From Phycisphaera sp. (GTDB lineage Bacteria > Planctomycetota > Phycisphaerae > Phycisphaerales > UBA1924): a stretch of 64,000 nt of DNA. The stretch covers positions 3,405,205 to 3,469,204 of the forward strand of contig CP098402.1 in assembly GCA_025916675.1 (NCBI GenBank), given 5' to 3'. The position numbers and the translations under genes are program-made. The notes under the pieces were generated by a model. That model saw nothing but the letters and a program-made list of their open reading frames with translations. It was not told the DNA's origin and searched no databases. Shown in pieces: positions 47,393-51,460 of this stretch. How positions within the stretch are numbered: position 1 is the stretch's first letter; each line of letters begins with the position of its first letter.

Positions 47393-47683
47393 ATGAACGT
47401 CAAACCCCTCGATGACAGAATCGTCGTTCGCCCCTCGGCGCAAGAGACCAAGACCGAGTCTGGCATCTTCTTGCCCGAGACGAGCAAGGAGCGCCCCATG
47501 ACCGGCAAGGTCATCGCTATTGGCCCGGGCAAGCGCCTGGACAACGGCGAGCATGCCAAGCCGACCGTGAAGAAGGGCGACACCGTGGTGTTCGGCAAGT
47601 ACGCCGGCACCGAGGTGGAGGTGAAGGGCGACGAGCACCTGATCCTGCGCGAGAGCGAGCTGCTGGGCATTTTGGATGGCTGA
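47393..47683 (+). CDS. groS: Co-chaperonin GroES
   Basis: A 96-residue lid of the GroEL chamber. MNVKPLDDRIVVRPSAQETK, GIFLPETSKERPMTGKVIAI (mobile loop), GDTVVFGKYAGTEVE and HLILRESELLGIL are all canonical. It lies 75 bases after groEL1, and its stop is two bases before the left arm of the first cassette. Confidence 0.97.
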   Translation: MNVKPLDDRIVVRPSAQETKTESGIFLPETSKERPMTGKVIAIGPGKRLDNGEHAKPTVKKGDTVVFGKYAGTEVEVKGDEHLILRESELLGILDG

Positions 47684-47685
47684 AG

Positions 47686-47713
47686 AGGCATCGGGCACCG
47701 GGCATCAGGCATT
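47686..47713 (+). repeat. Left arm of cassette 1: four tandem heptamers RGGCAYY
   Basis: AGGCATC, GGGCACC, GGGCATC and AGGCATT lie head to tail. In RNA they pair with the right arm at 48101-48128 at 24 of 28 positions plus two G-U pairs. The arm begins two bases after the groES stop. Confidence 0.88.
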
Positions 47714-47724
47714 GGGAGGATCGG

Positions 47725-48102
47725 ATGGCAGGAGAGATCCGGTCGTATCGAGACTTGCGTGTCTGGCAGGCGTCCGTTGAGATCTCGCTCGCGGTGTATG
47801 GGCTGACCAAGATTTTTCCGGCCGACGAGCGTTTTGGATTGACCCGTCAGCTTCGCAGGGCTGCGGTTTCGATTCCCTCCAACATCGCCGAGGGCTATGG
47901 ACGAGGGACACGAAGCGATTATCTGAGGTTCTTGCGAGTGGCTCGTGGATCGTTGTACGAAGTTGAAACCCAGCTCTTGATCGCCGCCCGGCTGGGATTT
48001 CTGAACGAGGATGGGCGCGCCGAAGTCGAACAACAACTCAAGGAGTGCGGGCGCATGCTCGCCGCCTTGATCAAGAGCGTCGATACCAAGAGTCCGGCCT
48101 GA
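47725..48102 (+). CDS. S23/four-helix-bundle protein (23S rRNA intervening-sequence family)
   Basis: A 125-residue helical-bundle protein of the S23P/IVS family. Family blocks RSYRDLRVWQASVEISLAVY, FPADERFGLTRQLRRAAVSI, PSNIAEGYGRGTRSDYLRFL and GSLYEVETQLLIAARLGFL are intact. Relatives are encoded inside intervening sequences of 23S rRNA genes in Leptospira and others; the Avd accessory protein of diversity-generating retroelements has the same fold. Their role is not settled; RNA or nucleic-acid binding is suspected. Here no rRNA or reverse transcriptase is near: the gene is inserted between groES and groEL2 inside inverted repeat arms, and its stop codon overlaps the right arm. Ribosome site GGGAGGATCGG. 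Confidence 0.92.
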   Translation: MAGEIRSYRDLRVWQASVEISLAVYGLTKIFPADERFGLTRQLRRAAVSIPSNIAEGYGRGTRSDYLRFLRVARGSLYEVETQLLIAARLGFLNEDGRAEVEQQLKECGRMLAALIKSVDTKSPA

Positions 48103-48128
48103 TGCCCGATGCCTGGTGCCCGATGCCC
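48101..48128 (+). repeat. Right arm of cassette 1: four tandem heptamers RRTGCCY
   Basis: GATGCCC, GATGCCT, GGTGCCC and GATGCCC, the reverse complement type of the left arm. It starts within the TGA stop of the S23 gene and ends 7 bases before the groEL2 ribosome site (AAGGAG). Confidence 0.88.
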
Positions 48129-48147
48129 TTCTCCGAAGGAGTCCCAG

Positions 48148-49761
<1,614 letters not shown>

Positions 49762-49788
49762 GGCGGATTCGGAGAGGAGAATTCTCAC

Positions 49789-49812
49789 CACAGAGGCGCA
49801 GAGGCACAGAGG
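49789..49812 (+). repeat. Left arm of cassette 2: three tandem octamers CRCAGAGG
   Basis: CACAGAGG, CGCAGAGG and CACAGAGG in tandem, 27 bases after the groEL2 stop. The last copy runs into GGAGGG, which serves as the ribosome site of the gene at 49822. Confidence 0.88.
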
Positions 49813-49821
49813 AGGGAAGAT

Positions 49822-50220
49822 GTGGGGGAGAGCTGGAGGGCCGAGGGCGAGAAGGACGAACTGACGCGGGAGATCATTGGGGCGGCGATCGAGGTCCACA
49901 GGGCTCTCGGTCCCGGCTTGCTGGAGTCGGCGTACGAAGCATGCCTTGCCGCCGAGTTGGAAGATCGAGGGATCCGGTTCCAAGCCCAAGTGCCACTGCC
50001 TGTGTTGTTCAAGGGACGGAGCATCGAAGCCGGGTACCGGATGGACTTGGTGGTGAAGGACCGGGTGATCGTGGAACTTAAGGCTATCGAGAAGCTCTTG
50101 CTGATCCATGAGGCCCAACTCTTGACGTATCTCAAGCTCTCTGGGCTCTCAACAGGTCTCATCTTGAACTTCAATACGCCGTACCTTCGCGACGGCATCA
50201 TCCGGAAGGTCTTGTCATGA
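49822..50220 (+). CDS. GxxExxY protein (PDDEXK_3-type)
   Basis: A 132-residue protein named for its GLLESAY (GxxExxY) motif, preceded by [17 protein letters not shown]. The core [19 protein letters not shown] has the D-x(n)-ExK layout of PD-(D/E)XK nucleases, and [20 protein letters not shown] follows as in the family. Nuclease activity has been proposed for the family from fold similarity; I know of no settled function. It starts with GTG after a GGAGGG site that overlaps the left repeat arm. The gene is inserted between groEL2 and dnaJ and bounded by octamer repeats in inverse orientation. The CACAGAGGC-type arm is familiar around GxxExxY genes in other genomes, from memory rather than search. 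Confidence 0.9.
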
Positions 50221-50257: not shown

Positions 50258-50282
50258 TCTCTGCGCCTCTGTGCCTCTGTGG
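50258..50282 (+). repeat. Right arm of cassette 2: octamers YCTCTGYG
   Basis: TCTCTGCG, CCTCTGTG and CCTCTGTG plus a final G: the complement of the left arm, with the one CG-containing octamer in another slot. It ends 26 bases before the dnaJ start. Confidence 0.87.
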
Positions 50283-50308
50283 TTATTCCCCCTCTGACAA
50301 AGGACTCC

Positions 50309-51460
50309 ATGCCCACCACCCGCGACTACTACGAGATTCTCGGTATCGAGCGTGATGCGTCGGAGGACGACATCAAGCGCGCGTATCGGCGGCTGGCGCT
50401 AAAGTTCCATCCGGACCGCAACCCGGACGATGCCGAGGCGGAGACGAAGTTCAAGGAGGCGGCCGAGGCGTACGAGGTCTTGGGCGACGCGAACAAGAAG
50501 GCCCGCTACGACCAGTACGGGCATGAGGGCCTGCGCGGCCAGGGCGGGGCGTCTCACGACTTCAGCCACATGAACGTCGAGGACATCTTCTCGATGTTCA
50601 GCGACATCTTCGGCGGCGGCGGCTTCGGCGGCATGGGCGGCGGCCGTGGCGGACGCCAGCGCGTGGCGCGCGGGTACGACCTGGAGACCGAGGTCGAGAT
50701 CGAGCTCAAGGACGTGCTGACCGGCACGGAGCGCGACGTTGAGTTTACGCGGCTGGACGTGTGCGACACGTGTACGGGCAGCGGCGCGAAGCCCGGCAGC
50801 GAGCCGCAGACGTGCCCGACCTGCGATGGGCAGGGCAAGGTGCAGCAGGCCGGCATGGGCGGCATGTTCCGTATGGTGACGGCGTGCCCGAGCTGTCGCG
50901 GTCGGGGGAAGATCATCAAGGAGCATTGCCCCGGTTGCAAGGGCAAGGGGCGTGTGCCGCGCAAGCGTGTGCTGAGCGTGAAGATTCCGGCTGGCATTCA
51001 TGAGGGCCAGGCCGTGCGAGTGCAGGGCGAGGGCGAGCCGCCGCCGCCCGAGGCCTCGCCCGGTGGCACGGGCGTGCGAGGCGACCTGCATGTGGTGGTG
51101 CGCGTCGAAGAGCACGACATGTTCACGCGCGACGGCGACCACATGCTGATGGAGCTGCCCATCGGCTTCACGCAGGCGGCCCTAGGCACCGAGATGGACG
51201 TCCCCACGCTGACCGGCAAGGTGAAGCAGTCGATCCCGAAGGCCACGCAGCACGGCACGTTGTTCCGCCTGCACGGTGAGGGCCTGCCCAACCTGCGCAG
51301 CGGGCGGCGGGGCGACCTGGTGCTGGTCACGCGGGTGGAGATTCCCAAGAAGCTCAGCGAGAAGCAAGAGAAGCTGCTGCGCGAGTTTGCCGAGACCGAG
51401 GACGTGAGCGTGATGCCCGAGAGCCACGGCTTCCTCAAGAAGATCCGGGACTTGTTCTGA
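50309..51460 (+). CDS. dnaJ: Chaperone DnaJ
   Basis: A 383-residue type I Hsp40. The J-domain has HPD at 34-36; a Gly/Phe-rich stretch ([15 protein letters not shown]) follows; the zinc region has four CxxCxGxG repeats ([32 protein letters not shown]); the substrate-binding domains are complete. It works with DnaK and GrpE; dnaK is not in the window. The ATG at 50309 was preferred to an upstream in-frame start that would read through the repeat arm. Confidence 0.96.

Follow-up and report, generated by a model that had tools for sequence, protein, structure and literature searches.

An S23-family gene between inverted tandem-heptamer arms in the groES-groEL2 junction of Phycisphaera sp., probably one copy of a widespread small mobile element

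Tandem heptamer repeats are known from cyanobacteria, where they are called STRR heptamers. Heptamers in inverted pairs have been described in Xanthomonas, two species of which have 70 and 75 such pairs, and Nostoc has similar repeats (PMC4692102). According to that source, the heptamers of both groups are G-rich and located near stop codons, and groES is one of the repeat-associated genes. The repeats are described there as generally occurring without mobile elements, and the text contains neither 'S23' nor 'four helix'.

S23 genes are known from another setting, namely the intervening sequences in the 23S rRNA of Coxiella and Leptospira (PMC4990558). In that paper, the Coxiella intervening sequence is about 430 nt long, has complementary ends of about 28 bp and carries its S23 gene in the sense orientation with respect to the host transcript. 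The same paper calls the function and origin of rRNA intervening sequences, including those bearing S23, unclear after more than 25 years, and it presents mobility only as a hypothesis. Both the S23 genes of rRNA intervening sequences and the inverted heptamers of Xanthomonas and Nostoc are thus known, but apart from one another. In a literature search conducted mostly outside the subscription journals, no title or abstract opening was found that connects tandem heptamer arms to S23 or GxxExxY genes. As far as this search reached, it is new that S23 genes of many phyla lie in such arms, that the unit is gained and lost as a whole and that GxxExxY genes display a parallel design.

The locus described here is in a stretch of 64,000 nucleotides from Phycisphaera sp. 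(contig CP098402.1), which we refer to as the window. The original prediction was that an S23-family gene, bracketed by inverted arms of tandem heptamers, is inserted between groES and groEL2 and that the unit is an intervening-sequence-like cassette able to live in operon junctions; it was also suggested that the unit may be processed out of the chaperone message. The features of the unit and its host genes are as follows:

47393..47683, + strand: groES, the upstream host gene (PF00166, E 8e-33)
47686..47713, + strand: left arm, four tandem RGGCAYY heptamers, 2 nt past the groES stop (sequence and inverted-repeat finder)
47715..47719, + strand: GGAGG, a Shine-Dalgarno-like sequence that presumably serves the S23 gene (sequence)
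47725..48102, + strand: S23 / four helix bundle protein gene, 125 aa (PF05635, TIGR02436)
48101..48128, + strand: right arm, four heptamers complementing the left arm and overlapping the S23 stop codon
48148..49761, + strand: groEL2, the downstream host gene (TIGR02348, 743 bits)

The predicted geometry proved to be exact. A script check places the groES stop codon TGA at 47681-47683, followed by AG and then by the left arm; there are 19 nt from the right arm to the groEL2 ATG (48148), and the groES-groEL2 gap without the unit is 21 nt. The left arm consists of the units AGGCATC, GGGCACC, GGGCATC and AGGCATT and the right arm of GATGCCC, GATGCCT, GGTGCCC and GATGCCC. Across 28 positions they form 24 Watson-Crick pairs, two G-U pairs and two mismatches by script, and a repeat finder picks up the inverted arm pair over 26 nt at 92%. 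Two tandem RGGCAYY units with at most one mismatch occur seven times in the 64-kb window, six of them within the arms of the S23 gene, and the chance expectation is a mean of 1.57 with a maximum of 5 in 100 shuffles. Folding of the RNA from 47670 to 48150 gives z = -4.0 relative to shuffles, and in the predicted minimum-energy fold 26 left-arm bases are paired, all 26 of them to the right arm. The unit therefore has complementary ends able to form a long stem, like the 23S rRNA intervening sequences; its location between groES and groEL2 is not theirs.

The S23-family gene predicted between groES and groEL2 stands up well against the curated cut-offs, with the protein scoring 128.6 bits against 33.8 for PF05635 (E 1.4e-37) and 124.6 against 24 bits for TIGR02436. 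The protein is predicted to have a four-helix fold (pLDDT 94). The closest solved structure to the model is 2gsc (XCC0516), 2rld (BT_0352) being another match, and both entries have five chains. After these two, the model matches Avd, alone and in the ribonucleoprotein of diversity-generating retroelements, at TM 0.71-0.76, and the Avd profile gives 27 bits on the S23 protein, far below its cut-off of 80. Phage carriage of the S23 gene was considered and ruled out, as tblastn of the protein against 50,697 phage records produced no match at E <= 1e-5.

We think it likely, on the comparisons below, that the unit at 47686-48128 is a copy of the S23 cassette, a small and widespread mobile element in which a single S23 gene lies between inverted arms of tandem heptamers. 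Such a cassette would be about 400-600 bp long, with arms of about 3-5 tandem heptamers each, and would have its own ribosome site and follow immediately on the stop codon of a gene in a row, in the same orientation as the genes around it.

The arms of S23 genes were surveyed with a score that compares the left flank with the complement of the right flank. In the source genome and its relatives (the locus itself plus the best S23 match from each of 29 genomes, out of 66 others that have one), 26 of 30 S23 loci score at least 14; the controls are 200 mismatched left/right pairs, with a 99th percentile of 14 and a largest score of 21, and displaced windows, 0 of 28 of which pass. A cross-phylum set comprises the best 80 of at least 587 confirmed S23 loci from GTDB genomes, found by a search that required a motif like VSVPSNIAE. 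Of this set of 80, 79 could be scored (L192 is too short) and 52 of the 79 reach at least 14; here, 400 mismatched pairs have a 99th percentile of 13 and a largest score of 20, and one of 69 displaced windows passes. With equal window sizes, 49 of the 79 S23 genes pass the threshold, compared to 9 of 295 ordinary genes away from S23 and 1 of 109 adjoining S23 at the same loci (together 10 of 404); the 30 of 79 S23 genes below the threshold count against the proposal. The mismatched-pair, displaced-window and ordinary-gene controls rule out chance or low complexity as the source of the arms. The titles of these best 80 of at least 587 loci name Planctomycetota, Bacteroidetes, Acidobacteria, Clostridia, candidate phyla, Gemmatimonadetes, Proteobacteria and others. 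Judged from these loci, the arrangement is not special to groES-groEL2 but is common around S23 genes of many phyla.

When the relatives are pooled with the best 80 of at least 587, 109 of the 110 loci can be scored and 77 of these 109 are strong-armed, with a period of 7 in 54, of 8 in 15 and of neither in eight. The strong-armed loci span 402-691 nt, and in their 5' arm G exceeds C in 70 cases and C exceeds G in five. Left arms behind a sense gene start from -25 to +24 nt of its stop codon in 41 of 48 strong-armed cases. The arm units mostly differ from one locus to another but match within each locus. G-quadruplex formation was dropped as a general function of the arms because many of them lack GGG runs (e.g., AGCTTCT and AGTTTCAA). 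Both neighbors are sense to the S23 gene at 54 of the 110 loci and both antisense at four (36 and 4 among the 77 strong-armed loci); a sense bias is also usual for ordinary genes, which counts against using it as evidence of mobility. None of eight rRNA motif strings occurs at any of the 110 loci, and by this crude test an S23 element inside a 23S rRNA gene was rejected for them.

The source genome (G000), a single 3.62-Mb contig with one PF05635 match, has many arrays of the same heptamer. Three tandem RGGCAYY units with at most two mismatches give 57 matches and the reversed pattern gives one; the arrays cluster at about 25 places, including the S23 cassette. Five of these places (L039, L041, L050, L051 and L053) are gene-less hairpins, that is, two facing arrays with a short loop. 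The arms therefore recur in this genome with and without an S23 gene. With the cassette and three weak arrays (L040, L048 and L054) set aside, 22 of 26 arrays are within -12 to +60 nt of the stop codon of a long frame (1104 of 4600 random positions are), and 16 of the 26 lie 1-12 nt 3' of it. Tandem heptamers that are dispersed, near stop codons and partly in convergent pairs, as described for Xanthomonas and Nostoc, are thus present in G000. Several gene-less arrays (L038, L043, L050, L052 and others) follow genes with similar ends, which by eye read ..GACGCGGGGTGTGAG or similar and then a stop codon, the encoded C-terminus being DAGCE or similar; positions of such arrays in the genome are 758093, 1639322, 2393128 and 2943628. 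These look-alike ends possibly reflect a preferred target or a spread gene family.

RGGCAYY arrays are more numerous in genomes whose S23 arms are of the RGGCAYY type (n=12) than in those with other arms (n=16; p = 1.2e-4), with kinship ignored and the cassette arms counted in; these 28 genomes are those of the 30 loci of the relatives set minus G081 (score 9) and G029 (score 7). The difference between genomes with any S23 match (n=67) and without (n=34) is weak (p = 0.009), kinship again being ignored and cassette arms included. Four genomes (G048, G063, G067 and G079) have arrays but no S23 match, which counts against the mobile-element reading and implies that S23 is unnecessary for keeping the arrays. 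The arms of the G002 cassette have no clear genome-wide family of their units; TGGCSRY was tried as such a family and found no support: G002 gives 16 matches, five of them in the cassette's own arms, and the reversed pattern gives 11.

All 41 genomes searched have groES. Thirty of these 41 groES loci were compared, and 29 are readable (L109 has no readable groES); the other 11 genomes are outside the comparison. S23 with inverted arms is behind groES in eight of the 29 (G000, G002, G006, G007, G014, G015, G018 and G019), and the arm sequences differ among these genomes yet pair internally; for example, G002 has GGCCACT-like units. As seen by eye, G023 has a heptamer hairpin without a gene in this junction, G013 has other short-repeat arms, also gene-less, and G004, G005 and others have a plain groES-groEL2 gap. 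For the copy at 47686-48128 itself, these plain junctions come from other species of the genus or family and not from near-identical strains. The junctions of G012 (L099) and G024 (L115) hold inverted short-repeat arms without a gene, with CAGCAGA-like and AAATGGCC-like units, and those of G001 (L091), G003 (L093) and G020 (L114) a different gene, sulfotransferase-like by eye. From these sequences, the junction seems to be open to many inserts. Four genomes of the same genus (G001, G003, G004 and G005) have no S23 at this junction, S23 is away from groES in G003, G005 and G017, and the G014 copy looks frame-disrupted. Of the situations that would speak against the original prediction, neither of the two that can be computed from sequence was encountered, i.e., that all close relatives have the gene at the same place without arms or that the genome has no further copies of the arms.

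A tree of 31 S23 proteins (L073, with an in-frame stop, was dropped, and G002 and G014 were added from their groES loci) requires four changes for the eight groES-located proteins, and only 2 of 500 shuffles are as low, i.e., these proteins are clustered. The tree is compatible with one old insertion with losses and also with several origins.

Evidence for gain and loss comes from plasmids. S23 relatives are present in 41 plasmid records, mostly cyanobacterial, and all seven S23 plasmid records run through the arm script have heptamer arms. At what we call site 1, a Trichormus plasmid (plasmid C) and a Scytonema plasmid are occupied, with gaps of 441 and 427 nt, whereas the Aulosira, Tolypothrix and N. 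linckia plasmids, whose flanks are about 97% identical, are empty with a gap of 13 nt; the Nostoc C052 plasmid has a shortened remnant. The insert at site 1 is directly behind a stop codon, and a shared GTAA permits a target-site duplication of 3-4 bp. A junction next to TraM is occupied in C052 and N. edaphicum, empty on two C057 plasmids and filled by a gene-less hairpin in ATCC 53789; the empty plasmids carry about 41 nt that are absent from the occupied ones. The nrdB-nrdA junction is occupied in N. edaphicum, where S23 is antisense to the genes, and empty in Calothrix NIES-4105. One element of 416-427 nt, 78-82% identical, is present at three unrelated sites, and its alignments extend to the outer ends of the arms or stop no more than about 10 nt from them. 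An S23 duplicate on two Calothrix plasmids was rejected as a fresh jump, the annotated genes on both sides sharing their layout.

On a plasmid of a Peltigera cyanobiont (Nostoc; L246:1448-2046) a gene-less hairpin whose arms are similar interrupts the S23 gene itself, and a further copy of this hairpin is on an Aulosira plasmid (L234); no target-site duplication is visible by eye at this insertion. Taken together, none of the sites gives a clear target-site duplication, a point against the proposal. The plasmid sites and the interruption in L246 imply that both the arms with a gene and the arms without one behave as insertions. Presence and absence at near-identical sites, together with discrete ends, are what one expects of a mobile element, and both are found for the family on Nostoc-type plasmids. 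Taken with the arms in the source genome and the junctions of its relatives, which show a plain gap, a hairpin without a gene or S23 between arms of another sequence, these empty sites support well the prediction of a cassette that can live in operon junctions.

A second cassette of similar design is located 1.7 kb downstream of the S23 cassette in the same row of genes, between groEL2 and dnaJ (ATG at 50309; recognized by eye from the J domain in its sequence):

49787..49812, + strand: left arm of tandem octamers (CACAGAGG/CGCAGAGG), arm score 19 (L032)
49822..50220, + strand: GxxExxY / PDDEXK_3 gene of a nuclease family (PF13366, E 1.1e-43; TIGR04256)
50259..50283, + strand: right octamer arm, the complement, just ahead of dnaJ

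A genome-wide count gives 22 occurrences of two octamers in tandem and none of the reversed control. G000 has three GxxExxY genes, of which that at 49822..50220 alone has arms. In the source genome and its relatives, 30 of 32 GxxExxY loci were scored (L122 and L142 are too short) and 20 of the 30 have inverted arms with a score of at least 14, but only 10 exceed the maximum of the mismatched pairs (24); this control is inflated because the arms share a consensus, their period being mostly 8-9 and their common core CAGAG. Octamers are commoner in genomes with a cassette-type GxxExxY (n=29) than in others (n=32; p = 2.9e-5), with kinship ignored, the own cassette arms counted and the two types split at 118 bits, which was our own choice. 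The groEL2-dnaJ junction has the cassette in G005, lacks it in G002, G003 and G004 and has other sequence in G001 and G006. By their coordinates, GxxExxY matches are about 2 kb behind groES in G005, G016, G018, G024 and G069. One Bacteroidetes contig (L216), which surfaced in the ordinary-gene control, has a GxxExxY gene (by eye) in arms beside its S23 locus. The arms of L128, a GxxExxY locus of G069, are 10-mers (CGCAGATGAA), and unit lengths beyond 7-9 therefore occur.

How such a cassette might work can be outlined. The arms of a groES-groEL2 transcript, which is presumably shared by the two genes, would fold into the predicted 28-position stem and loop out the S23 frame. RNase III, which cuts rRNA intervening sequences, may also cut this mRNA stem, and by analogy with Coxiella such cutting of the chaperone message is plausible. 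The S23 protein, as a structural relative of Avd, may bind the repeat units of its own arms as single-stranded DNA or RNA and may be needed in cis or in trans for movement. We prefer the idea that an S23 pentamer would grip these repeat units as ring proteins grip spaced repeats. The best reading of the hairpins that have the same arms but no gene, elsewhere in G000 and also in a relative at this junction, is that they are non-autonomous relatives. Movement would presumably be via DNA because no PF00078 reverse transcriptase was found in the genome.

Four other explanations were considered. The arms could serve mainly for RNase III cutting, which would excise the S23 message and separate those of groES and groEL2. 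This is possible, if somewhat doubtful as the main role of the arms, and it is compatible with mobility. The 28-position stem and the predominantly sense orientation (54 against 4 of 110 loci) fit it, and so does Coxiella, where RNase III cleaves in vitro the 28-bp terminal stem of the S23-bearing intervening sequence and tandem GACAGAT heptamers lie close to the 5' end of that sequence (PMC4990558); the antisense nrd copy and the many gene-less copies are difficult to explain in this way. Retro-mobility, in which S23 acts like Avd with a reverse transcriptase in trans and copies the hairpin RNA, would make use of the fold match to Avd, alone and in the ribonucleoprotein, and of the sense bias. 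A PF00078 match is present in three genomes (G017, G018 and G057), all of which hold arrays, but none was found in G000 or in 20 of 23 other genomes, including the array-rich G006, G007, G019, G055 and G056, and because of this the reverse-transcriptase route looks very improbable. A diversity-generating retroelement, for which the Avd model is also below its cut-off, or a group II intron with its intron-encoded reverse transcriptase likewise finds no PF00078 match in G000.

The hairpins might instead be an independent dispersed repeat, a terminator or mRNA 3'-end hairpin that spreads by slippage and recombination, with S23 as a passenger in some loops. The G000 arrays without S23, far more numerous than the one with it, and their location behind stop codons agree with this, as do the inverted pairs near stops in Xanthomonas and Nostoc, generally without mobile elements and, in the text of that paper, without S23 (PMC4692102). 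We consider it unlikely, however, since the empty plasmids at site 1 lack both arms and gene, the arm type of S23 tracks the arrays of its genome and homologous elements end at the arms. Alternatively, S23 could have a function in the groE operon of this family and be inherited vertically with it, its arms being kept for the control of expression. Its presence at the junction in eight of 29 readable genomes and its clustering on the tree would suit this idea, which is nevertheless quite improbable in view of the same-genus junctions without S23, the S23 genes away from groES, the apparently disrupted G014 copy and the other inserts that occupy the junction elsewhere. A mobile S23 cassette is still the reading that we prefer. 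As far as sequence alone goes, it can be said that S23 genes are bracketed by matched arms and recur so across phyla, that the unit is present or absent on plasmids with discrete ends, that gene-less copies exist and that one of these has inserted into a cassette.

More tentatively, and with somewhat less than an even chance of being right, S23 cassettes and the parallel GxxExxY cassettes may form a pan-bacterial class of mobile elements whose ends are set not by fixed termini but by a periodic design of inverted tandem 7-, 8- or 9-mers, free in sequence and recognized by a repeat-binding protein (e.g., an S23 pentamer with one heptamer per subunit). The rRNA intervening sequences and the Xanthomonas and cyanobacterial hairpins would then be its rRNA-adapted and gene-less branches. 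In any case, the mobility hypothesis for S23 becomes a testable system, in which the protein, the arms and plasmid sites with and without the cassette are named, and the finding brings together two unexplained sets of data, one on genes annotated 'four helix bundle protein' and one on heptamer hairpins in Xanthomonas and cyanobacteria.

The comparison with known systems is as follows. Like the Coxiella intervening sequence, the unit has an S23 gene in sense orientation, complementary ends and heptamers before the gene; it differs from rRNA intervening sequences in being located between groES and groEL2, in having arms made wholly of tandem heptamers and in having gene-less copies in its genome. 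With the Avd protein of diversity-generating retroelements, S23 shares its fold, but the source genome has no PF00078 match. The repeats of Xanthomonas and Nostoc, as described (PMC4692102), are similar in being tandem heptamers, mostly of four units, in inverted pairs close behind stop codons; they differ in that no link to S23 or mobility is made there and in that the G-quadruplex idea does not fit many S23 arms. MITEs and REPINs are also short inverted-repeat elements with dispersed gene-less copies, whereas the S23 cassette carries its S23 gene and no transposase gene, and the sequence of its arms varies by host while their periodic design recurs.
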